The notes beneath the pieces are model-generated. The model saw only the letters and a list, made by a program, of their open reading frames with translations. It did no database searches and was not told the origin of the DNA. From Pseudomonadota bacterium (GTDB lineage Bacteria; Desulfobacterota; Desulfovibrionia; Desulfovibrionales; Desulfovibrionaceae), in the NCBI GenBank assembly GCA_018822105.1, contig JAHJLB010000012.1:1-54079 (forward strand): a DNA stretch of 54,079 nucleotides, read 5' to 3'. A program made the translations under genes and the position numbers. Position 1 is the stretch's first letter; each line of letters starts with the position of its first letter. This document shows, piece after piece, positions 25,000 through 46,188 of this stretch.

Positions 25000-25893
25000 A
25001 TGAGCCATCGCCCCTGCGCCATCCCTTGCCCGAACAACTTTCTGAAAGGACGCCCCCTGTCCGCCCTGCTGGCCGGACTGATGGCGGCTGCGCTGCTCTG
25101 CGCTGCGCCCGAGGCCCAGGCCCAGGAGGACCGAGCCCTGGCAGCGGCGCCGGCCGGGCCTGTGCGCTACGTCATCGTCAAGGCCCAGGGACAGGGCGTC
25201 AACGCCGAGGAGGCCGAGCAGGAAGCCCTGCGTTTTGCGCGGCGCCTGGCGGCCAAGCACTATGCCGGCCTCGGCGGAGCGGCGGCCCTGGACGGCTCCC
25301 CGCAGGGCCAGCGCATCCTCGCCACCCACAGCACCCCGCCCATGGGCCTGGCTTCGGTGAGCACCGTGGTGCTGGTGGAGCTGCGCCTGCGCCCCCTGGC
25401 CGAGCCGCCGCCCCAGGCCCTGGCCCTGCCCGTGCTGCAGGTCGCCGTAAACGCCGCGGCCCAGGTCCTGGTGGAGGCCAGCCGGCCGAGCGAGATCCTC
25501 GTCGCCCTGGACTCCGGCGGCAGCGCCGAGCCGGAGATTTTGCCCGGCGGCAGCGGGGCGGTCTACCGCCTGGCGCCGGGCAAGCCCATGCGCCAGGCCC
25601 TGCCCAAGACCAGCGCCGCCTCGCTGCGCGTGCTGGCCTGCACCGGGGGGCTCGCCGTCCCGGCTGCGCCGCGCAACGTTGACGAGGCCTTTGCCAAGGC
25701 CAGGCCGGGCAAGTCGCGCCCGGCCACCATGCAGGGCGTCATCTCGGAATGCGTGGAGGTCGAGACGCCCCTGGCCGGGAAAGCTGGGCTGGCCAAGCGC
25801 TCCATGCGCGCCAAGGGCTCAGAATCGCCGGTGAACATGACCGGCGCCGCAGGCCGCGAAGCCGGCGCGCCCACCGGCAAGGACATGCCCTAG
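25000..25893 (+). CDS. Exported protein of unknown function, FlgT-N-like?
   Basis: 297 residues with CAGGAGGCC before the ATG. A signal peptide (LLAGLMAAALLCAAPEAQA) is followed by VRYVIVKAQGQGVNAEEAEQEAL, which resembles the N-terminal module of FlgT-like flagellar assembly proteins; that likeness is weak. The rest is Ala/Pro-rich and ends in a low-complexity tail. It lies 12 bases before the CHASE2 cyclase gene and is probably co-transcribed, so it may act with the sensor in the periplasm. Confidence 0.62.
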   Translation: MSHRPCAIPCPNNFLKGRPLSALLAGLMAAALLCAAPEAQAQEDRALAAAPAGPVRYVIVKAQGQGVNAEEAEQEALRFARRLAAKHYAGLGGAAALDGSPQGQRILATHSTPPMGLASVSTVVLVELRLRPLAEPPPQALALPVLQVAVNAAAQVLVEASRPSEILVALDSGGSAEPEILPGGSGAVYRLAPGKPMRQALPKTSAASLRVLACTGGLAVPAAPRNVDEAFAKARPGKSRPATMQGVISECVEVETPLAGKAGLAKRSMRAKGSESPVNMTGAAGREAGAPTGKDMP

Positions 25894-25905
25894 GCGGGCC
25901 CGTCC

Positions 25906-27888
25906 ATGCCTGAGCCCAGACGCACCCTCTCCGCCAAGGAGCGCGGCCTGGCCGTCGGCTGTGCCGTGCTCGCGCTGTACTGCGGCCTGTTCCTGGCCTT
26001 CCCGAACGCCCTGGCGCGCCTGGAGCTGTCCCTGTCCGACCTGCGCTTCCGCCTGGCCGCCCGGCCCCTGGCGCACCCGGACATCGTGCACCTGGACATC
26101 GACGACGCCTCGGTGCGCATGTTCGGGAAATGGCCCCTCAAGCGCTCGGTCCACGCCCAGGTGCTGGACATCCTCACGGACTGCGGGGTGTCGCTGGTGG
26201 CCTACGACGTCGTGTTTCACGGCCCCTCTTCCCCAGGCGGGGCCGGGGAAAAGGGCGAGGCCGAGGACGCGGCCCTGGAGGCGGCCATCGCCCACAACGG
26301 CCATGTGGTCTTTCCCGTGGGCGTGGGCCTGGTGCAGGAGCCGGAAGTGGTGCGCCTGACCCCCGAGGCTGACGACCTGCCGCTCCTGCCCTCGCTCTTG
26401 CCGCCGGGGCAGGTGCACGTGCCGGCCCTGCGCCAGGCCGAGAAGACCTTCCTGCCCCTGGCCCGCCTCGCGCGCCACTGCCAGGGCCTGGGCCATGTGG
26501 CCGCCACCCCCGACGCGGACGGCACCTACCGGCACATGCCGCTCTACGTGGGCTACCACGGCCAGCTCCTGCCCTCCCTGGCCCTGACCTCGGTGCTGCG
26601 GCACCTGAACGCCAAGGCCCTGGCCCGGCCCGGAGCGCTGGACATCTCCTGGCCCGGCGGCAGCCTGAGCGTGCCCACGGACCCGCAGGGCATGCTGCCC
26701 GTGAACCTCGCCGCGCCCTGGGGCAACGGGTTCTGGCACCTGTCCTACGCCGAGGTGCTGGAGTCCGCCGCCGACCCGGCGCGCCTGGCCTTCCTGCGCC
26801 AGGGGCTGCGCGGCAAGCTCGTGGTGGTGGGGCTGGCCGCCTCGGGCACCACGGACATCAAGGCCACGCCGCTCTCCCCGGCCGAGCCCCTGGTGACCCT
26901 GCACGCCAACCTCGTGAACACCATCCTCACCCGCTCCTTCCTGCGCCAGGCTCCGGCCTGGGCCTCGGCGGTCTTTGCCGCGTGCTTCCTGGCGATCATC
27001 ACCGCATGCTTCCTGCGCCTGCCCATCCGCGTGTTCCTGCCCGTGAGCGTGGGCCTCGCCGCGCTCTGCCCGGCCACGGCCCTCGCCGTCTACCTGGGCA
27101 CCGGCCTGGCCCTGAACCTGACCGGCAGCGCCCTGGCCTGCGCGCTCTTCGTGCTGGCCCTGCTGGCCGACGGCCTGGCCCGCACCGCCGGGGAGAGCGC
27201 CCGCCAGCGGCGCATGCTCGAAGCCTATTTCTCCCCCAGCATCGCCCGGCAGATCCTGGAGTCCGGCACAGACATCATGGAGGGCCGGGGCGTGGACCTG
27301 TCCATCATGTTCTCCGACATCGCCGGGTTCACGGCCATGAGCGACCACATGGAGCCCGCCGAAGTGCAGCGCTTCCTGGGCGAATACCTGGAGGAGATGA
27401 CCGCCTGCATCTTCCGCCACGGCGGGGCCGTGGACAAGTTCATGGGCGACGGCATCATGGCCTTTTTCGGCTACCCCGAGACCCCCGGCGTGGACTCCGT
27501 GGAGAACGCCCGGCGCTCGGCCCTCTCCGCCGTGGCCGCGAGCGTGGACATGCAGGCCGCCCTGCTGCGCCTGAACGAGCGCTGGCGCGCCCAGGGCCGC
27601 CAGGAGATCCTGGCGCGCATCGGCGTGAACACCGGGCACTGCGTGGTGGGCGACATGGGCTCGGCCAGCCGCCGCGAATTCACCCTGCTGGGCCGCAACG
27701 TGAACTTGGCCCAGCGCCTGGAGTCCAACGCCCCCAGGGGCGGCATCCTCATCAGCGCCCGCACCGCGGCCCTGGTGCGCGACCAGTTCAACCTGGACCA
27801 GCCCTCCTTCATCAAGGTCAAGGGCTTTGACAAGGAGATCGAGGTCGTCACCGTGCGCCTGCCCGGGGCCGGCGCCTGCGAAGCTTAA
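25906..27888 (+). CDS. CHASE2-domain class III adenylate/guanylate cyclase
   Basis: 660 residues: a membrane helix near 15-35, a CHASE2 extracytoplasmic sensor (about 40-330, with VHLDIDDASVRMFGKWP), three close membrane helices (about 345-435), a linker, and a catalytic domain (about 465-650). The metal aspartates lie in MFSDIAGFT and KFMGDGIMAFFG; GRNVNLAQRLES holds transition-state Asn/Arg. It should make cAMP (Lys in DKFMGD favours ATP) in response to an external or envelope signal. It ends in a long hairpin. Confidence 0.9.
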   Translation: MPEPRRTLSAKERGLAVGCAVLALYCGLFLAFPNALARLELSLSDLRFRLAARPLAHPDIVHLDIDDASVRMFGKWPLKRSVHAQVLDILTDCGVSLVAYDVVFHGPSSPGGAGEKGEAEDAALEAAIAHNGHVVFPVGVGLVQEPEVVRLTPEADDLPLLPSLLPPGQVHVPALRQAEKTFLPLARLARHCQGLGHVAATPDADGTYRHMPLYVGYHGQLLPSLALTSVLRHLNAKALARPGALDISWPGGSLSVPTDPQGMLPVNLAAPWGNGFWHLSYAEVLESAADPARLAFLRQGLRGKLVVVGLAASGTTDIKATPLSPAEPLVTLHANLVNTILTRSFLRQAPAWASAVFAACFLAIITACFLRLPIRVFLPVSVGLAALCPATALAVYLGTGLALNLTGSALACALFVLALLADGLARTAGESARQRRMLEAYFSPSIARQILESGTDIMEGRGVDLSIMFSDIAGFTAMSDHMEPAEVQRFLGEYLEEMTACIFRHGGAVDKFMGDGIMAFFGYPETPGVDSVENARRSALSAVAASVDMQAALLRLNERWRAQGRQEILARIGVNTGHCVVGDMGSASRREFTLLGRNVNLAQRLESNAPRGGILISARTAALVRDQFNLDQPSFIKVKGFDKEIEVVTVRLPGAGACEA

Positions 27889-38086: not shown

Positions 38087-38116
38087 CAAAAAAAGAGGCG
38101 GGGGGAGCCCCGCCTC
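38087..38116 (-). terminator. Terminator after the csgG-like operon
   Basis: GAGGCGGGG (38095-38103) pairs with CCCCGCCTC (38108-38116), followed on the minus strand by TTTTTTT. It ends the three-gene minus-strand operon of the envelope cluster. Confidence 0.9.
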
Positions 38117-38140: not shown

Positions 38141-38434
38141 CTACTGGCCGCCGACCTTGACGCTGCCGACCTTGGTCTCGGCCTTGACGTTCTGGCCCTG
38201 GCCAACGTTGGTGACCTGGCCGGCCTTGCCCTTGATCTTGATGTCGCCGGTCTTGCCGCCTTCCTTCACGTCCACGGAATGGACATCGGTGGTGGCCTTC
38301 ACATTCTGGCCCGCGCCCACGTTGGTCACGGTGCCGACCTTGCTGTCCACGGAGATGTCGCCGGTTTTGGCGGCGGCGAGGGCCAGGGAAGCGCTGGCCA
38401 GGACGATGAATGCGCACAGAACGAGCTTTTTCAT
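38141..38434 (-). CDS. Exported two-repeat protein (beta-repeat paralog 1)
   Basis: 97 residues. A clear signal peptide (LVLCAFIVLASASLALA) leaves about 75 residues built of two tandem units of about 37. Each unit starts KTGDI, contains VTNVG-x-GQNVKA and ends V-x-SV-x-V; about two thirds of positions match. The Gly/Asn/Val alternation suggests beta strands, as in curlin-like fibre subunits, but the true curlin Q/N spacing is not exact. GGGGGAG precedes the ATG. It is last in an operon with the CsgG-like lipoprotein. Confidence 0.82.
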   Translation of the reverse strand: MKKLVLCAFIVLASASLALAAAKTGDISVDSKVGTVTNVGAGQNVKATTDVHSVDVKEGGKTGDIKIKGKAGQVTNVGQGQNVKAETKVGSVKVGGQ

Positions 38435-38537
38435 GAATCTCCCCCTTGAGCTACAGGTTGGGCTTGGGTTGCCACAAAACACACTCCCGTGCCTGCGCGC
38501 CCTCCTGCCGACAGGGAGCGCGCAGGCTTCATCAACC

Positions 38538-40199
38538 TTACTTGGCCTTGGTGGTGATGGCGATGGAGCGCTCCACCACGCTTGCGCTGGCGCCGGGGGC
38601 CTGCTGCGGCTTCATGGGCGGCGCGGCCTCGCGGGACTCCGTGGCCACGGTCTTGGCCGGGGCCGCCTCGGAGATCTTGATGCCCCGCGAGAGGTTGGTC
38701 AGGGCCTTCTGCCCGCCCTCCAGGGCCAGCATACCGCCCGCGCCCGCGCCCAGGGAGCGCGTCTTGACCTCGGGCAGGCGGGACTCGCTGGCGTAGAGCA
38801 TGATGCGCTCCGCCCCGTAGGGCGGGGCCACGTCCAGGGTGAAGCCGTCGGTGCCCTCGGGCACGGTGTAGGTGCGGCCGCCCTTGAAGAAGTCGAGGCT
38901 GCGGTGGCCGTTGGGCAGAAGCTGCACGGTCTGGCCGTCGGCGGTGAGGTAGACGATCTTGCCGTAGAAGTCCTTGTTGCCCTGGAGGTTGATGACGATC
39001 TTCTCGCCCTTCTTGAAGACCTGCTTGTCCGTCCAGATCTTCACGTCCAGGGGCACGCCGGGCTGGGTGTTCTGGTTGGCGGCGCGGCCCACCACCGAGG
39101 CCCCGTCCATGGTCATGGCCGCGGCCACCGGGGCCGCGGTGCCGGCGACCTTGCTCTTCTCGCCCACCACCGGGGCGTTGAGGAAGAGCTGCTCGTAGAA
39201 GTTCTCGTCCAGGCTCTTGGCCGGGAAGCCGTAGGCCGTGGACACGGCCTGGATGGCCCCGGCGGTCTCGGCGTCCAGGTTGCCGCTGGCGCGCAGGGTG
39301 CGGAAGCCGTAGACATAGAGCAGGTTCTGGATCATGCGCACGCGGCTCTGCTGGTTGGCATCCAGGTACTGGTCGCGGATGTTCTCGATGACCACGGCAT
39401 CCGGCTTGGCGCCCTGGTCCACGCACTTCCAGTAGGGCAGGTTCAGGTACTTGCCCAGGGTCTCCAGCACGGAGAGCTCCACCAGCACGCGCACGGCGGC
39501 GTGGCGGCCCTGGATCTTCTTGACGCTGCTCTTGTAGCCGAAGCTGGCCCCGAAGATGGAGAAGCCGATGTCCAGGTCGCTGGCGCCCTTGAAGACCTTC
39601 ATGGTGTTCACGGCCTGCACGCGGGGCACCATGGCCATGGTCTCGATGTCCGTGATGTTCAGGTCGATGGTGATGCTGGACACCGAGTCGCGGTCCTGCT
39701 TGCCCATGTCCACGCTGGGGGAGTTCTTGCCCGCGCCGAAGGCGCCGCCGAAGTCCAGGCCCGAGCTGCCGGATTCCAGGGAGCGGTCGAACTCGGTGAT
39801 GCCGCCGTTGAGCACGACGTCGGGCTTGGTCTTGCCCTCCAGGGTGGTCATGTTCAGCGCGGCCTGGTTCTTGATGTAGATGGGGTCGTAGGGGATGAAC
39901 ACGATGCTGCCGCCCACGCTGTTGATGGCGCTCATGATCATCTTGGTGATGTCAAAGGGGATTTCCGCGCCCGTGGCCTGCGAGGAGCCGGTTTCGTCCT
40001 GCACTTGGGTGGTCTGCACGCGCAGGGTGCCCACGCGGAACTCCCGGGTCAGCCGCCCGAATTTCTTGAGCGCCTGGGAATAGGAGGTCTCCGTGGCCTT
40101 GGGGGCCTCCACGGGCAGGGTCACGTCCGTAGGCTGCTTGCAGGAGGCCATGAGCAGGGCCATGGCCAGAACGGTGACAAGCATCTGGCGTGTCTTCAT
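38538..40199 (-). CDS. CsgG-like lipoprotein with peptidoglycan-binding and DUF4384-type regions
   Basis: 553 residues. Lipobox MASC (Cys20) marks an outer-membrane lipoprotein. The N-terminal 250 residues look like CsgG/HfaB (VVLNGGITEFDRSL, SITIDLNITDIETMAMV), the family that forms secretion pores for curli and holdfast proteins. Then comes a helical peptidoglycan-binding-like part (IRDQYLDANQQSRVRMIQNLLYVYGF landmarks: DQYLDAN, YVYGF, SGNLDAETAGAIQAV). Last is a DUF4384-type beta domain (FKKGEKIVINLQG, LLPNG, YTVPEG, PPYGAERIMLYAS). I infer an envelope export or assembly platform for the repeat proteins beside it. Confidence 0.8.
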   Translation of the reverse strand: MKTRQMLVTVLAMALLMASCKQPTDVTLPVEAPKATETSYSQALKKFGRLTREFRVGTLRVQTTQVQDETGSSQATGAEIPFDITKMIMSAINSVGGSIVFIPYDPIYIKNQAALNMTTLEGKTKPDVVLNGGITEFDRSLESGSSGLDFGGAFGAGKNSPSVDMGKQDRDSVSSITIDLNITDIETMAMVPRVQAVNTMKVFKGASDLDIGFSIFGASFGYKSSVKKIQGRHAAVRVLVELSVLETLGKYLNLPYWKCVDQGAKPDAVVIENIRDQYLDANQQSRVRMIQNLLYVYGFRTLRASGNLDAETAGAIQAVSTAYGFPAKSLDENFYEQLFLNAPVVGEKSKVAGTAAPVAAAMTMDGASVVGRAANQNTQPGVPLDVKIWTDKQVFKKGEKIVINLQGNKDFYGKIVYLTADGQTVQLLPNGHRSLDFFKGGRTYTVPEGTDGFTLDVAPPYGAERIMLYASESRLPEVKTRSLGAGAGGMLALEGGQKALTNLSRGIKISEAAPAKTVATESREAAPPMKPQQAPGASASVVERSIAITTKAK

Positions 40200-40257
40200 A
40201 ATGCCAACTCCTTCTTTATATCCGGCTGCGGGCCGCCCGCGCAGGCGTCAGCGGACT

Positions 40258-40590
40258 CTACTTCTTGACTATGCTCTTGTTGCCCTTGCCCTCGTCGATG
40301 ATGACGATGTCTCCGTAGATGTTGCCGCCGGCCACGACGCTGTTGATGTTCGTGTCGCCGCTGCCGGCCTCGATGGAGCCGCCCTTGTCGCGCTTGGCGT
40401 CGCTCTTGGCCTTGACCTTCTCGTACTTGACGTTGGTGCCCTTCTTCAGGGTGTTGTCGAACTCAAAGCCGTCATCGTGGTCGATCTTGTCGTCGATGTC
40501 CTTGGCCAGGCCGACCCCGCCCAGGGCCAGGGTCAGGGCCAGGGTCAGGGCCAATAGGAGAGCGGACACGGCGATGCCTCTGCGTTTCAT
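40258..40590 (-). CDS. Exported small protein, Asn/Gly-rich C-terminal half
   Basis: 110 residues. The signal peptide holds a TLAL repeat (LLALTLALTLALGG). The mature part is Asp/Lys-rich (DDKIDHDDGFEF) and then reads GDTNINSVVAGGNIYGDIVII, with the Asn/Gly/Val pattern of beta-repeat proteins. It does not align end to end with the two paralogs nearby. It is first in the operon and has the best promoter of the cluster. GGGGGA precedes the ATG. Confidence 0.78.
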   Translation of the reverse strand: MKRRGIAVSALLLALTLALTLALGGVGLAKDIDDKIDHDDGFEFDNTLKKGTNVKYEKVKAKSDAKRDKGGSIEAGSGDTNINSVVAGGNIYGDIVIIDEGKGNKSIVKK

Positions 40591-40688
40591 GACGTCCCCC
40601 TTGCAGTCCCGACGCCACGCGCCGCCAGCCGCACAGGCACCATGCCCGGCGCTGCGGCGTCCGCATCTGGTCCCTGCAGGTTGCAAAA

Positions 40689-40717
40689 AAAATAGCCTGA
40701 AGACCGCATCCTGTCAA
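40689..40717 (-). promoter_or_regulatory. Strong promoter of the minus-strand csgG-like operon
   Basis: On the minus strand TTGACA (complement of 40712-40717), exactly 17 bases, then TATTTT (complement of 40689-40694). It is one of the best sigma70 matches in the window and gives a leader of about 95 bases before the first gene. Confidence 0.68.
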
Positions 40718-40756
40718 GGAGCGCCCCGGCTTTCCCGCCCTGAAACGGCCAATCTG

Positions 40757-40786
40757 TTGCCTTGAGGCCAAGCCTCATGTTATGAG
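40757..40786 (+). promoter_or_regulatory. Promoter of paralog 2 with inverted repeat in spacer
   Basis: TTGCCT (40757-40762), an 18-base spacer and TATGAG (40781-40786). Within the spacer TGAGGC (40763-40768) and GCCTCA (40772-40777) form a perfect inverted repeat around CAA, placed like an operator. It lies about 85 bases before the start at 40870. Confidence 0.48.
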
Positions 40787-40869
40787 CAGACGCGGCCCGT
40801 TCCCCAACCATCCGCCCGCGCGGCGACAAGGCCCTGGCCGCCGCCGCACCCAGCCACAGGGAGGCACCC

Positions 40870-41214
40870 ATGCGCACCAGACTTCCCGCCGCAGCGCGCC
40901 GTCCCGGCAGGGTCCTGCCGGCCCTGGCGCTTCTTGGCCTGGCGGCCCTGAGCCTGGGCCCGGAGGCCCGGGCCGGCCAGATCCGCGAGAGCGACCTGCA
41001 CATCTCAAGCACCATCGGCAAGGTGGTCACCACCGCCGAGGGGGACAAGGTCGATGCCCGGAGCTCGGTGCACTCCGTGGACATCAAGCGCGGCAGCAGC
41101 ACCGGCGAGGTGCACATCACCGGCCAGGCCGGGCGCGTGACCACCCAGGCCGGCGGCCAGAACACCAGCGCCGCCAGCACCGTCGGCGGGGTCAAGGTCG
41201 GCGACAACAAGTAG
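40870..41214 (+). CDS. Exported two-repeat protein (beta-repeat paralog 2)
   Basis: 114 residues with a longer signal peptide and GGGAGGC before the ATG. The mature part aligns with paralog 1: VHSVDIKRG matches VHSVDVKEG, and TGEVHITGQAGRVTT matches TGDIKIKGKAGQVTN, ending V-GGVKVG. The first unit has lost most GQN residues (EGDKVDA). It is transcribed alone from a divergent promoter. Duplication followed by divergence is clear; the role as secreted subunit or regulator of assembly is inferred. Confidence 0.82.
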   Translation: MRTRLPAAARRPGRVLPALALLGLAALSLGPEARAGQIRESDLHISSTIGKVVTTAEGDKVDARSSVHSVDIKRGSSTGEVHITGQAGRVTTQAGGQNTSAASTVGGVKVGDNK

Positions 41215-41220
41215 CCCGCG

Positions 41221-41547
41221 CTACTTCCTGCCCTTGGCGGAGGCGATGACGTCTCCGGCGGCGCGGCCCGGGGCGACCTTGCCCTGGTAGATGAGCTGGG
41301 TGTCGCCGGCGCCCTCCTGGGCGTCCTTCTTGCCGCGCTCCTGCCAGAGCCAGACATGCCCGTCCCTGGTGTCCAGGATGAGGACCTTGGGCGGATAGAG
41401 GTTGTTGTCGCCGCTCTGCACCACCACGGGCTTGTAGCGCCTGACCTCCTCGGCCTGGGCCGGCGCGGCCAGGGCCAGGGTCAGGGTCAGGCCGAAGAGG
41501 GCCAGGGCCAGGGCGAAAGGCTTGCGAAACTGCCCACGCGTGTTCAT
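41221..41547 (-). CDS. Exported small protein, unknown
   Basis: 108 residues: signal peptide (ALALALFGLTLTLALAAPAQA) and about 75 mature residues. VLILDTRDGHVWLWQE looks like a short beta-propeller-like or quinoprotein-type strand seen in many small exported proteins, with Lys-rich ends. I do not recognise a family. It converges with paralog 2, with only 6 bases between their stops. GGAGG lies before the ATG. Confidence 0.72.
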   Translation of the reverse strand: MNTRGQFRKPFALALALFGLTLTLALAAPAQAEEVRRYKPVVVQSGDNNLYPPKVLILDTRDGHVWLWQERGKKDAQEGAGDTQLIYQGKVAPGRAAGDVIASAKGRK

Positions 41548-41655
41548 AAGACCTCCAGGGTTGCCGCGCCGGGGGGCGCGTCTTTTCCGGGACCTGAGCC
41601 ACATCTGCCAAATTCCCGGCCCGTGCGCAAGACGCTTTGCCCAAGGCCGGGCATG

Positions 41656-41684
41656 TTGCCAGAATCGTCGGCTTCGGGCATAGT
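41656..41684 (+). promoter_or_regulatory. Promoter with GCTTCGGG block (exported protein / CsgG-like operon)
   Basis: TTGCCA (41656-41661), 17 bases that end in GCTTCGGG, then CATAGT (41679-41684). The caspase-like gene has the same TTGCCA and the same GCTTCGGG in the same place (44899-44927), so a common regulator or sigma preference is likely. Confidence 0.55.
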
Positions 41685-41735
41685 GCAGGCAATGACGCCC
41701 GACTTGCGCGCCTAGCCGGGCACAGGAGGTGCGAG

Positions 41736-42188
41736 ATGACCCGAGACCGCAGCCGCCGGAGCCCCCGGGCCGCCCTGGCAACGGCAGCCCTGGCCATGTT
41801 TCTCGCCGCCCTGCCCGCTGCGGCCCTGGCGGCGGACGAAACCTACCACGGCAAGCCCACGGAAAGCCAGCTCGTCCGCGCGGGCTACCGCTTCGCCGGA
41901 GAGAAGTTCGAGGACAAGTTCCCGGAAATCCCCGGCGACGAGACCAACATCCGCATCTTCAAGAAGGGCCAGGAAACCCTGGGCCTGTACATCCTGCCCA
42001 GCGGGCAGACCTACGGCTACGCGGTGAAGATGGGCAACCAGCCCATCACCGCCTACATCGACGAATACAACACCGGCTACTGCGAGAAGGACTTCGGCGA
42101 CGGCGAGAGCTTCCGCATCGACTTTGCGTCCTATCGCCTGGGCCAGCGCGGAGAACCGGGCAGGCAGCGCTCTGTCCGGCGCAGATAG
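41736..42188 (+). CDS. Exported protein, unknown
   Basis: 150 residues, AGGAGGT before the ATG. The signal peptide (ALAMFLAALPAAALA) is followed by a compact mostly beta domain (FKKGQETLGLYILPSGQTYGYAV) with one cysteine and a basic tail RRR. No family is recognised. It is 48 bases before the CsgG-like/TPR gene, in one operon. Confidence 0.75.
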   Translation: MTRDRSRRSPRAALATAALAMFLAALPAAALAADETYHGKPTESQLVRAGYRFAGEKFEDKFPEIPGDETNIRIFKKGQETLGLYILPSGQTYGYAVKMGNQPITAYIDEYNTGYCEKDFGDGESFRIDFASYRLGQRGEPGRQRSVRRR

Positions 42189-42236
42189 GCCACACAGCGC
42201 CACGCGCGCGCCAAACCAGCCCGAGGAGGACTTCAC

Positions 42237-42923
42237 ATGCGCATCCCCGCCCCGACCCTGACCGCCCTGGCGGCCCTGCTTCTCCTTCTTGTCTGCGCGC
42301 CGGGCCGGGCCGCGGCCCAGGACTCCGCCGTCACCACCCTGGCCGTGCTGCCCTTTGAAAACAATTCCGTCACCGACGCCAAGTCCTACGACCCCCTGAC
42401 CCAGGGCCTGGCGGCCATGCTCATCACCGACCTCAAGATGGCCGGGACCAGCCTCAAGGTCATCGAGCGCGCCCAGATCGCGGCCCTGCTCAAGGAGGTG
42501 GCCCTGGGCCAGACCGGCATGGTGGACGCCGCCACCGCCGTGCGCGCGGGCAAGCTGCTCGGCGCCCAGAGCATCGCCTTCGGCGCCTTCATGGTCCTGG
42601 GCAGCGACGTGCGCCTGGACGCGCGCATCATCAAGGTCGAGACCAGCGAATGCATGCAGGCCTCGTCCATCAGCGGCAGCAAGAGCGACTTCATGAAGCT
42701 GGAGCGCCAGCTGGCCGAGAAGATCGCCGCCGCCCTCAAGGTGACCCTGGCCGCCGCCCCGCCCGCCCGCGGCGGCATGGACGCGGCCATGCTCTACTCG
42801 CGCGGGCTGGAGGCCCTGGACAAGGGCAACAGGGCCGAGGCCGAGAAGCTCTTCGCCGAGACCGTGGCCGCCGACCCCGCCTACAAGCGCCAGGTGGACG
42901 GCATCATGGGCGCGCTGAAATAG
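42237..42923 (+). CDS. Exported CsgG-family protein with C-terminal TPR-like unit
   Basis: 228 residues. A signal peptide (LAALLLLLVCAPGRAAA) leads to a CsgG/FlgO-like domain: LAVLPFENNS, MLITDLKMAG, KVIERAQIAALLKE, LGAQSIAFGAF and ARIIKVETSE. A TPR-like pair of helices (MLYSRGLEALDKGN, AEKLFAETVAADP) closes the protein. No lipobox is evident. Such proteins bind or regulate envelope machines. It is the second CsgG-like protein of the cluster and ends in a strong hairpin. Confidence 0.82.
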   Translation: MRIPAPTLTALAALLLLLVCAPGRAAAQDSAVTTLAVLPFENNSVTDAKSYDPLTQGLAAMLITDLKMAGTSLKVIERAQIAALLKEVALGQTGMVDAATAVRAGKLLGAQSIAFGAFMVLGSDVRLDARIIKVETSECMQASSISGSKSDFMKLERQLAEKIAAALKVTLAAAPPARGGMDAAMLYSRGLEALDKGNRAEAEKLFAETVAADPAYKRQVDGIMGALK

Positions 42924-42940
42924 CCCGCGGCCGAGGAAGC

Positions 42941-42979
42941 GCAAAAGGCCCCGCCGGACAGTCCGGCGGGGCCTTTTGC
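42941..42979 (+). terminator. Strong terminator after CsgG/TPR gene
   Basis: GCAAAAGGCCCCGCCGGA (42941-42958) pairs perfectly with the 18 bases at 42962-42979 around loop CAG, and the second arm ends CCTTTTGC with GTTGGGTTT after it. A 170-base gap without a gene follows before the end of the caspase gene. Confidence 0.88.
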
Positions 42980-43147
42980 GTTGGGTTTCGCCCTGGTCAA
43001 AGCGTGGAAGGCGCCGTGGCGGCTTCCGTGGCAAGGCTGCGGGGCCAGCCAGCCGGCAGGCCTGCGGCACGGCCCCTTGGCGCCCCGGCAGGCCGTTGGG
43101 GCGGCCGTGGTGCTGGCCGTGGACGAACCCGTGGGGCCGGCGCGGTC

Positions 43148-44860
43148 CTACTTGACCCGGATGTCCACCTGCTCGTTGCCGAAGTCCTGCACGAAGATCT
43201 TTGACCTGCCGCCAAGGGCCTTGTTGTCCACGGCCACGGCCAGGTCCTCGCCGCTGCCGCCGAAGAGCAGGTCCAGCACCAGCAGGCCGCTCTGCTTGTT
43301 GAAGCGGTCCGTGCTCACCTGGGTCACGCGGGGGGTCTTCTCCAGGGCCGCCACCAGGGCCCCGTAGACGGCCATGTCCTTGACCCCGGTGGCGAAGACG
43401 CGCACGGCCCCGCCCTCGGCGCCGGCCTTCTGGGCCGCAGCCAGGAGGGTGGGCACCACGAAGCTGTCCACGGTCTCGCGCGAGGCCTGGGCAAGGGCCT
43501 GCTGCGCCCCGTTGAGCGCGCTGATGTGGGCCGCGGCCGCGGTCTTCACCGTGGCGCCCACGATCTGCCCGGTCTGGGAGCTGATGATCTTGAGCTGGAT
43601 GTTGGTCTGGATGGACTTCATGCCCGTGCCGGGCATGATCTCGCCCAGCTCCTGGATCACGGCCTTGCCCACGAGCACGTACTTGGCCCCGAACATGGTG
43701 CCCAGCTGCTTGGCCGCGTCCACGTTGCCGGAAAGGGCCATGCGGGCCTGGCCCATCTGGTTGGCGGCCTCCAGCTGGGACTTGTCGATGAGCGGGTAGC
43801 CCTTTTCCGAAAGCTTGGCGATGAGCTCGTTCTCGGCCATGTTCATGCCCTTCACCGGGCAGTTCACGCAGTCCTCCTGCAAGAGGAACATGAGCTTGGG
43901 CGGACGGGCGGCGGCCGCCGGCCTGAGGGCGGCCGGGGCGGCCTGCTGGGCCGGAGCCGCGCTGGCCGGGGCGGGCTTGGCCGCGGCCTGCTGCTGGCCG
44001 CGCTCGATCTGGCGCTTGAGCTCGGCGATCTCCTGGCGCTCCTTTTCGATGCGCGCCCATTCCTCGCTCACGGCCTTGTCCGCTGGGCCCTCGGCCGTGG
44101 CCCCGCCCTTGAAGAAGAAATCGCCCGTCAGGGACGAGGACTGCCAGGGCACCTGGCGCTTGCCGGTCTCGCGCATGACGGACACGCGGACCTTCTTGAG
44201 CACCTTGTCCACCTCCAGGTTGGGGGTGGGCATGTATTCCAGCATGTACTTGGTGAACACGCCGTTCTTGCCCTCGCCGTCGGCAGCGGTGTCGCCGGGG
44301 GCCGTGGCGTAGGCGATGAACGTCCCGGTGGGCGCGTCCATGCGCGCCAGGCCCTTGGCGCTCGAGCGGTAGCTGCGGGCAAAGGGGTTGTCGCGGCAGG
44401 CGTCGAGCACGACGATGTTCAGCGGGTTGCCCGCGGTGTGCATGGCGTCGAGCACCTTGCCCGCGTCCACGGTCTCGTACTTGACGTCGGACTCCTGGCT
44501 GATCTTGGCCCCCACGGGCACGAGGTAGTTCACCCCGCCCACCTGCATGCCGTGGCCGGCGTAGAAGAACAGGCCCACGGAATCCTTGGTCAGCTTGCCC
44601 TGGAAGGTGCGGATGGCGTTCTCCATCTGCTTCTGGTTGGCGTTCAGGTGGGACAAGACCTCGAAGCCCATGCCCTTGAGCATGTTGGCCATGTCCGTGG
44701 CGTCGTTGACGGGGTTCTTCAGCGGGGAGCTCTCGTAGGCCGAGTTGCCGATGACCAGGGCCAGGCGGTGCTGCGGGGTGTCGGCCCGCACGCTGACGGC
44801 CGTCAATACCAGCAGGATCAGGACCGCGCACAGGGTCCGTGCGAGTTGGCGTGGGCTCAT
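43148..44860 (-). CDS. Exported caspase-like (C14) protein with CsgG/FlgT-like C terminus
   Basis: 570 residues: a signal peptide (LCAVLILLVLTAVSVRA), a caspase p20-like domain (about 30-265) with the catalytic His in FFYAGHGMQ and Cys in VVLDACRDNPF, a coiled coil (EEWARIEKERQEIAELKRQIERG in pieces), a Pro/Ala/Gln linker, and a 230-residue C-terminal region with LIDKSQLEAANQ and GAKYVLVGKAVIQELG, as in CsgG/FlgT/LpoB-type envelope proteins. It includes a CVNC pair. An active periplasmic protease with an assembly module is inferred. AAGGAGG precedes the ATG. Confidence 0.85.
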   Translation of the reverse strand: MSPRQLARTLCAVLILLVLTAVSVRADTPQHRLALVIGNSAYESSPLKNPVNDATDMANMLKGMGFEVLSHLNANQKQMENAIRTFQGKLTKDSVGLFFYAGHGMQVGGVNYLVPVGAKISQESDVKYETVDAGKVLDAMHTAGNPLNIVVLDACRDNPFARSYRSSAKGLARMDAPTGTFIAYATAPGDTAADGEGKNGVFTKYMLEYMPTPNLEVDKVLKKVRVSVMRETGKRQVPWQSSSLTGDFFFKGGATAEGPADKAVSEEWARIEKERQEIAELKRQIERGQQQAAAKPAPASAAPAQQAAPAALRPAAAARPPKLMFLLQEDCVNCPVKGMNMAENELIAKLSEKGYPLIDKSQLEAANQMGQARMALSGNVDAAKQLGTMFGAKYVLVGKAVIQELGEIMPGTGMKSIQTNIQLKIISSQTGQIVGATVKTAAAAHISALNGAQQALAQASRETVDSFVVPTLLAAAQKAGAEGGAVRVFATGVKDMAVYGALVAALEKTPRVTQVSTDRFNKQSGLLVLDLLFGGSGEDLAVAVDNKALGGRSKIFVQDFGNEQVDIRVK

Positions 44861-44898
44861 GGATGTGCCTCCTTGCATGCTGCGGGATTCTTGTCCGA

Positions 44899-44927
44899 CC
44901 CATACCCGAAGCTGGCAAGCATGGCAA
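44899..44927 (-). promoter_or_regulatory. Promoter with GCTTCGGG block (caspase-like gene)
   Basis: On the minus strand TTGCCA (complement of 44922-44927), 17 bases that end in GCTTCGGG, and TATGGG (complement of 44899-44904), about 40 bases before the start at 44860. Same layout as the promoter at 41656-41684. Confidence 0.55.
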
Positions 44928-44970: not shown

Positions 44971-46188
44971 CTACTTCAGCTTGCCGGGGAAGCTCTGGGG
45001 GTCCAGGTCGAGGACCTCCTCGCCGCGGATGTAGTGCATGATGCGCGGGTGCTCCACGGAGTCCAGGAGGTTGGCGATGGCCCCGCGCAGGCGCTCGGCC
45101 CCGCTCAGGGCGCAGCAGATGAGCTCGATCTCGCGGGCCAGGTCGAGGGCGGTGCGGAACTGGCGCAGCACGGGCACGGCCCCGGCCTGGATGGCGGCCT
45201 CCAGGTCCTCCTTGACCAGCTCCAGGCAGTTCTTGATCACCGACAGGGCGTTGTTGCCCACGTGGGCCATGCCGCCCGAGGCCTTGGCCAGGGCGTCGCG
45301 GCCCACCTCCAGGCGCGAGCCCACGGTGAGGGACACGATGCGCGAGCAGTCGGCCAGGAACTGGTGGTCGAAGCCGCTGAAAAAGCCCTCGACGCGGGAA
45401 TAGAGCATAATCAGCCCGAAGGGCCGGGTGTCGTGCCCGCGCAGGATGAAGGCCAGGCGCGAGCGGTAGCCCTCCTGGTAGGCCACGCAGTCGTACGATT
45501 CGCCCCCGCGCTCGGCGCTCATGAGGTTGTTTGAGAGCACGTAGCTCCACGGCTTGCTGGCCACGGCCTGCATCACCGGATGGCCGGGGATGCTCTCCTC
45601 CAGGGCGTGCACGAAGATGGGCGTGGCCGTGCCGTGCAGGGTGTCGGCGGCCACGTTGACCCATTCCTCGGACTTGTCGCGCAGGCGGCAGACGAAAAGG
45701 TCGGCCTCCAGCTGCTCCAGGAGCACCCCGGCGCTCTGCTCCAGAATCTCCTCCGGGGTCTGGAACTCCCCGCCCACGTTCACCAGGGCGTAGGTGATCT
45801 GGACCATGAGCGACATCTGCTCGTGCGCCCGGCGCAGGAGCGAGAACTTCTCGTCCAGGCGCACCAGCTCGGCCTTGGCCTTGCCCCGGCGGCGCAGGCG
45901 CGCGGCCACGGGCCGGTCGAGCTTCGAGCGGATGTCGGTGAGCATGGGCAGGAGGTTGCGCCAGTCGAAGACCCGGGCCCGGGCGTCCACGAACTTGGGC
46001 GTCTGGTTCGCGGCTTCGAGCCCGGCCTTGACCGAGAGCAGGAGGTCGCCCAGGGCGCGGCGCACCGGGGCCGGGGCCGCGCCCATGAGGGCCATGAGCT
46101 CCTGGCGCACGGGCTGGGGCTGGGGCGGCGCGGGGCAGGCCTGACCTGGGGCGGGCTGGGCCGCGGACGGTTTCTTGCTGCGGGGCAT
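44971..46188 (-). CDS. GAF-domain protein with H-box-like helix, no kinase domain
   Basis: 405 residues. A Pro-rich start, a helical N-terminal part, a coiled coil (about 85-125), a GAF domain (about 125-275), and then GGMAHVGNNALSVIKNCLELV, which resembles the phospho-accepting H-box helix of histidine kinases (shown as landmarks GGMAHVGNNAL and SVIKNCL). The protein ends without a HATPase domain. It may be a histidine phosphotransfer-like scaffold or a degenerate kinase. AAGGAAC precedes the start at 46188; an in-frame ATG at 46251 is less likely. Confidence 0.68.
   Translation of the reverse strand: MPRSKKPSAAQPAPGQACPAPPQPQPVRQELMALMGAAPAPVRRALGDLLLSVKAGLEAANQTPKFVDARARVFDWRNLLPMLTDIRSKLDRPVAARLRRRGKAKAELVRLDEKFSLLRRAHEQMSLMVQITYALVNVGGEFQTPEEILEQSAGVLLEQLEADLFVCRLRDKSEEWVNVAADTLHGTATPIFVHALEESIPGHPVMQAVASKPWSYVLSNNLMSAERGGESYDCVAYQEGYRSRLAFILRGHDTRPFGLIMLYSRVEGFFSGFDHQFLADCSRIVSLTVGSRLEVGRDALAKASGGMAHVGNNALSVIKNCLELVKEDLEAAIQAGAVPVLRQFRTALDLAREIELICCALSGAERLRGAIANLLDSVEHPRIMHYIRGEEVLDLDPQSFPGKLK

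Follow-up and report, generated by a model that had tools for sequence, protein, structure and literature searches.

The window analysed here is the whole stretch of 54,079 nucleotides (contig C25 of a 3.17 Mb genome in 63 contigs), and its subject is a cluster of eight genes at 38141-44860 that encodes a CsgG-family lipoprotein (LIPO), two repeat proteins (REP1 and REP2) and five further proteins. The cluster had been described beforehand as eight adjacent genes, all with export signals. Its coordinates were confirmed, and a simple rule (a hydrophobic core plus a cleavage site) predicted export signals in all eight proteins (8/8), with core hydropathies of 2.18-3.14 versus 1.53-1.60 in two flanking genes. 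Comparison with related genomes suggests that some sulfate reducers and their relatives have a second type of surface-assembly system, as yet undescribed and defined here from genomes only. The genes and regulatory sites are as follows (aa, amino acids).

38141-38434, minus strand: REP1 (P0010), 97 aa, a signal peptide and two repeats of ~37 aa; proposed exported subunit.
38538-40199, minus strand: LIPO (P0002), 553-aa lipoprotein with a CsgG core, a peptidoglycan-binding-like domain (~284-326) and DUF4384 (395-473); proposed wall-tied outer-membrane pore.
40258-40590, minus strand: ORFA (P0003), 110 aa, signal peptide; proposed nucleator, anchor or plug.
40870-41214, plus strand: REP2 (P0004), 114 aa, paralogue of REP1.
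41221-41547, minus strand: ORFB (P0005), 108 aa, signal peptide.
41736-42188, plus strand: ORFC (P0008), 150 aa, signal peptide.
42237-42923, plus strand: CSGG2 (P0007), 228 aa, signal peptide, like the N-terminal half of CsgG; accessory.
43148-44860, minus strand: CASP (P0009), 570 aa, signal peptide, caspase-fold peptidase with an LpoB-like C-terminal domain; accessory.
40689-40717, minus strand: sigma-70-like promoter of orfA-lipo-rep1, TTGACA-17-TATTTT.
38095-38116, minus strand: intrinsic terminator 3' of rep1, a 9-bp GC-rich stem with a T run.

The orfA, lipo and rep1 genes form a single minus-strand unit bracketed by a good promoter and a good terminator, and the TTGACA of this promoter is kept in genomes G009 and G010. 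To that extent the original prediction of strong promoters and terminators belonging to the cluster held. As a whole the prediction was confirmed in part, with promoter-like sites numbering 3 versus 0.5 expected and terminator-like sites 7 versus 4.0 (standard deviation 2.5) expected. The caspase gene most likely starts at the ATG at 44860 rather than at 44927. The ratio of nonsynonymous to synonymous substitution rates (dN/dS) against G009 was below 1 for all eight genes (0.25-0.80, with ORFC measured on part of its length), the highest value, 0.80, being that of the fast-evolving REP2.

Judged by profile alignment, P0002 is a member of the CsgG outer-membrane pore family. In a Pfam scan the protein matched DUF4384 (1.7e-20), and on its own it matched CsgG at E 0.0011 (18.8 bits, below the curated cut-off of 20.8) and PG_binding_1 at 0.0088, also below cut-off. 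A profile of 11 LIPO members aligned with E. coli CsgG at an hhalign probability of 95.3% (E 2.1e-8). With 22 members (the 24 homologues minus those of G003 and G447) the probability was 94.7% over CsgG residues 5-257 of 277, and thus the barrel-building parts of CsgG are covered. When the 11-member profile was searched against the PDB, the five top matches were all CsgG (E 0.005-0.03). P0002 has the lipobox MASC, the Cys of which is nearly invariant across the 22 members. The three top PDB matches of the 22-member profile were to AmpDh2 amidase at profile positions 288-326 (E 0.03-0.05), and PG_binding_1 was matched in this same region by 9/22 members at E ≤ 0.1. As DUF4384 is carried by only 6/22 members, it lies outside the LIPO core. 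The CsgG loop that holds Tyr51, Asn55 and Phe56, described as the residues behind the pore's three rings (PMC6957492), is shorter by 4-7 residues in the 11 aligned homologues, which keep none of these residues (0/3; their positions in the alignment follow our own residue count).

Profile searches covered one phylum and used draft genomes, several of which have short contigs at the locus. A LIPO match that included the CsgG part was found in 18/348 genomes of the order, and a match of any kind in 29/348, the rest being matches to the DUF4384 or peptidoglycan-binding parts. The corresponding figures for an even sample of the phylum were 9/395 and 43/395. Six of these nine genomes belong to further families (G719, G289, G618, G663, G147 and G708), which together with f1 and f2 bring the families known to carry the gene to at least eight. 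As only 4/15 genomes of its own genus carry LIPO, its distribution within the genus is patchy.

We examined 24 LIPO neighbourhoods, calling genes in the fetched loci with a simple home-made caller that was checked in places by lists of open reading frames (ORFs); locus L060 was read from such lists. The contigs of G447 and G289 end before any partner, and that of G359 is also cut for REP. ORFA adjoins LIPO in 21/22 evaluable loci (the G003 contig covers just the last 38 residues of ORFA); in G708 another protein with a signal-like start holds its place. By family, ORFA stands beside LIPO in five of the eight, two are represented by contigs too short to tell, and in one it was not recognised. 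REP was found by profile in 17/21 evaluable loci and in 20/21 counting diverged copies, which were assigned by position and by eye (G552), by BLAST to other REPs (G618) or by composition (G708). The core of the cluster is ORFB-REP-ORFA-LIPO, and ORFA is its most constant partner. ORFB was found in 10 loci from genera g1, g34, g220 and g221, and ORFC also in the G567 locus. The description of ORFA, ORFB and ORFC as three orphans was right in that none has a credible Pfam match; for ORFA, given its constancy beside LIPO, the term no longer serves.

Co-occurrence in relatives had been proposed as a check, and the core of the gene set proved to be conserved. Across the order, ORFA was detected in 17/18 LIPO genomes versus 3/330 others (one of the three being G545), and REP in 15/18 versus 7/330. 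The seven REP genomes without LIPO comprise three matches to the signal peptide only, three copies from the genus, and G545, in which REP and ORFA lie together at a contig end. Fisher tests of co-occurrence with LIPO gave p values of 7e-25 for ORFA and 2e-18 for REP, values that ignore phylogeny and come from profiles partly built from the same genomes. A fairer, held-out test was one in which profiles trained on Desulfovibrionaceae only were searched against 3,489 ORFs. REP was recovered beside LIPO in L137, L140 and L141 (E 6.4e-14 or better) and not in L139 or L142; ORFA was recovered in L139, L140 and L141 (E 6e-6 or better) and not in L137 or L142.

REP1 and REP2 had been taken for paralogous two-repeat proteins, and this was borne out: they are 41% identical, and two repeats is the usual form of the family. 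The unit is ~36 residues (31-38 as cut). By profile count most REPs have two units, with five in G719, seven in G379 and in one REP of G663, and eight in the other G663 REP. The family has an unusual composition. The mature part of REP1 contains no F, W, Y or C, and 27 REPs together have 13 such residues in 3,026 mature residues versus 8.2% in other proteins called at these loci. Among 310 called proteins of mature length 60-350, 19 were without F, W, Y and C, and every one was REP or REP-like. V, I and T account for 23-39% of REP versus a background of 17%, and adjacent hydrophobic residues are avoided (in 22 REPs, 74 versus 150 expected). With so few aromatic residues, REP would be an unusual material. 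Pfam matches of REP or ORFB, such as those to MAP2, UL20A, Adaptor complex and RemA, were regarded as low-complexity or signal-peptide noise.

Further REP-like genes were seen. Larger proteins that are REP-like in part are encoded near LIPO in G408 and G567; those at L104 9735-11276 (513 aa) and L058 12420-13625 (401 aa) are possible fibre-tip or adhesin proteins. An extra REP copy, with one or two TPR-CsgG-like proteins after it, is present in the window's own genome (L025 7753-9598, contig C36) and in G009, and in G010 such a protein adjoins REP1 (the other loci are L065 9343-13454 and L015 7087-8737). These cases form a second pairing of REP with a CsgG-like protein.

ORFA appears faintly REP-like in its C-terminal tail. 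When a REP-unit profile free of the signal peptide was searched, 4/5 matches ranking below the REP-containing proteins were ORFAs (E 0.09-0.7), and 5/6 of the next matches of the ORFA profile were REPs (E 0.004-0.8). Such reciprocal next-best matches are suggestive, not significant. From its position and this weak resemblance between its tail and REP, ORFA is a candidate connector between REP and LIPO. A further small protein, grouped by eye, is encoded between REP and ORFA at L106 3066-3383, L062 10685-11008, L060 8385-8714 and L107 867-1193; its copy at L106 is faintly REP-like in part (E 0.03-0.6).

We favour, with moderate confidence, a system of the CsgG family (type VIII-like) for export and assembly at the outer membrane that has its own non-curlin substrates and in which ORFA is co-exported as nucleator, anchor or plug. 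REP1, REP2, ORFA, ORFB and ORFC would cross the inner membrane by Sec, as the signal peptides predicted by the simple rule suggest. LIPO would provide the pore, and its peptidoglycan-binding-like domain, a weak but repeated match, would hold that pore to the cell wall. REPs would then traverse the pore unfolded and stack on the surface, forming a fibre or coat of beta-solenoid or amyloid-like type, and co-exported ORFA would link pore to polymer, like CsgB and CsgF in curli. The N-terminus of CsgF is described as entering the CsgG barrel, and surface CsgF as governing CsgA secretion (PMC6957492, PMC10133297), a precedent for ORFA linking pore and polymer. This genus may additionally have gained its secreted caspase-fold peptidase and soluble CsgG-like protein, perhaps for quality control. 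Surface export and fibre formation by the LIPO system are what we infer from protein sequences and gene company. The earlier picture of a pore with secreted repeat subunits that is not plain curli fits well, because LIPO is of the CsgG family, REPs accompany LIPO across genera and families, and no curli gene set was detected. More doubtful, although possible, is that these proteins make up a separate class of machine that evolved alongside curli, namely a wall-tied CsgG pore without the curli diaphragm, in which ORFA gates, caps and plugs the pore and, via a tail copied from the substrate, nucleates a fibre of beta-solenoid REP units.

Several results weigh against export of a REP polymer through LIPO. 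With the 22-member profile, CsgG was absent from the PDB match list, and just 9/22 LIPO members matched the Pfam model PF03783 at E ≤ 0.1. AlphaFold2 gave no usable model, with confidence scores (pLDDT) of 31 for LIPO (4 sequences) and 44 for REP1 (5 sequences). Hydrophobic residues spaced i,i+2 were not enriched in 22 REPs (148 versus 149 expected), and thus a simple beta alternation was not shown. Homology of REP with curlin was rejected at the sequence level, as hhalign of REP with CsgA aligned the signal peptides only. G034 has no REP adjoining LIPO, the one on the same contig lying 17 kb off, and some members of the genus carry REP without LIPO. Since the ORFA profile includes the signal peptide, its REP matches may partly be driven by it; hhalign of the ORFA and REP profiles aligned in the signal peptide only, and the ORFA tail compared with its own REP beat 95% of shuffles in just 3/10 pairs.

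Should the export reading be correct, sulfate reducers would have a second polymer-export solution built on a CsgG pore, with fewer parts than curli. The attachment of sulfate reducers to steel and minerals matters. CsgG serves as a sensing nanopore, and natural pores without the CsgG constriction could therefore interest that field. Many CsgG-family proteins are not channels for curli, and their substrates are largely open. One branch now has constant partners, and the export question is therefore testable with three small genes. Non-curli members of the family are on record: with a CsgG model of their own, Dueholm et al. (2012) report 41% false positives, which they regard as likely paralogues (PMC3521004). 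LIPO is one such paralogue, with the difference that constant REP and ORFA partners are given here for one branch, whereas partners are not described in the passages of that paper on these paralogues (PMC3521004). MafA of Neisseria is another likeness, being described as an oligomer reminiscent of CsgG that exports a neighbouring gene's product; its substrates are MafB toxins, and the comparison with LIPO is by description only (PMC7738311). No account of the LIPO-ORFA-REP gene set was found in the open-licence literature, nor any paper there on CsgG together with DUF4384.

The same genes could instead build a periplasmic or envelope scaffold in which LIPO ties the outer membrane to peptidoglycan, REP and ORFA pack in the periplasm and nothing reaches the surface. 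The peptidoglycan-binding-like domain of LIPO would suit that role, as would an OmpA-family protein beside LIPO in G034, the OmpA-like proteins seen by eye near LIPO in G408 and G567, and the occurrence of REPs in some genomes without LIPO. Moreover, LIPO does not keep the constriction residues of CsgG, so that its pore may function differently. We nevertheless consider a scaffold rather unlikely: the LIPO family aligns through the full CsgG core including the barrel-forming part, and CsgG and HfaB are described as acting, with small partners, in surface export.

By the models tested, the LIPO system is neither curli nor a holdfast anchor. REP and ORFA might be surface proteins that bind exopolysaccharide, as is thought of HfaA and HfaD in Caulobacter, rather than form free fibres, and the sole NCBIfam match of LIPO is indeed to HfaB. 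In Caulobacter the CsgG-like HfaB likewise has small surface partners: HfaA is described as CsgA-like and as forming multimers resistant to sodium dodecyl sulfate, with outer-membrane targeting of both HfaA and HfaD depending on HfaB, possibly the pore for both (PMC6707917). However, the HfaB match of LIPO is only 28.6 bits (7.7e-7), far below the cut-off of 300, and on two further LIPO members the HfaB model gave 11.9 bits and no match, respectively. REP and ORFA had no NCBIfam match to HfaA or HfaD, in a library not confirmed to include such models, and the accessory domains of LIPO differ. Genes for polysaccharide synthesis were not recognised in any fetched locus, none of which was searched systematically for them. 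An anchor of this type thus seems improbable, more so than the scaffold.

Diverged true curli, with CsgA, CsgE and CsgF too far changed to be recognised, is less probable again. As in curli, there is a CsgG-family outer-membrane lipoprotein encoded alongside small repeat proteins with signal peptides and a small partner. In 24 REPs the motif G-x-[GN]-N-x-A was counted 18 times versus 1.1 in shuffles, a hint only, because the occurrences come from 7/24 proteins with internal repeats that are not independent and the motif is absent from the REPs of the window's genome. In contrast, the curlin repeat (PF07012), CsgE and CsgF were each found in 0/21 LIPO genomes (the 24 minus G359, G447 and G289; CsgC was not searched), the E. 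coli control being positive each time; in this the claim that no csg gene set is present was upheld. The curlin-unit hidden Markov model listed no REP, and that of the REP unit reached CsgB at E 21. LIPO also differs from CsgG in its shorter pore loop with unconserved ring residues and in its extra peptidoglycan-binding-like and sometimes DUF4384 domains, and the REP unit, ~36 aa versus ~22 in curlin, is nearly free of aromatic residues.

The original prediction counted two CsgG-like proteins. P0002 aligns with the CsgG pore region as described above, whereas P0007, although it matches Pfam CsgG at 2.4e-11, covers just positions 4-103 of the 210-position model, without the pore region, and was therefore rejected as a second pore. 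P0007 also has a very weak TPR match. The TPR-CsgG-like proteins adjoining REP copies (L015, L065) likewise match the front part of the CsgG model only. Among the fetched loci, close relatives of P0007 are confined to its genus, where distant TPR-containing ones also occur, and there is a weak match in G663. P0009 had been read as a caspase-like protein with a CsgG/FlgT-like end; its domain matches were Peptidase_C14 at 9e-41 and, at the C-terminus, LpoB at 5e-5, and its catalytic motifs are intact (GHG from 102, DAC from 153). The further idea that it processes or polices assembly proved to be speculation. A strongly similar caspase directly precedes REP in just one further genus (G408), and genes of the P0009 family were found in 6/24 LIPO neighbourhoods (the window, G003, G009, G010, G408 and, weakly, G567), some of the 24 being short contigs. 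The caspase is thus accessory, not being found in the other 18/24, and it could process subunits. A module for defence or cell death built around the caspase, in which the CsgG-like protein would be the pore, is hardly credible: the motifs are intact and the PADLOC caspase model matches P0009 (1.7e-12), but the protein carries a signal peptide, its family is scarce beside LIPO, this was the sole match among nine proteins scanned, and no known system gene set was found.

Neighbouring genes gave some additional observations. At the G663 locus (L140 1-4378) several small CsgG-/FlgT-like proteins, one matched and the others recognised by eye, accompany two REPs, ORFA and LIPO. Downstream of LIPO in genera g34, g208 and g221 there is a constant set of a protein without a Pfam match, an ABC-transporter protein and a protein with an FGE-sulfatase domain (L064 10721-16724, where that domain was checked; the order is alike in L062, L063, L105, L106 and L107). 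The gene upstream of the cluster (44971-46188, minus strand) was rejected as a member of the system, since its product has no signal peptide and the G010 cluster sits elsewhere without it. This protein gave a weak GAF match (0.036), and its gene adjoins the caspase gene in the window, G009 and G003, not in G010. Elsewhere in the window (25000-27888, plus strand) a 297-aa protein without a Pfam match is followed by a CHASE2-adenylate cyclase. In G034 (L016 4733-7581) a DUF4384 protein and a CHASE2 cyclase 47% identical to that of the window adjoin ORFA and LIPO, and a signalling link between the CHASE2 cyclase and the LIPO system is possible.

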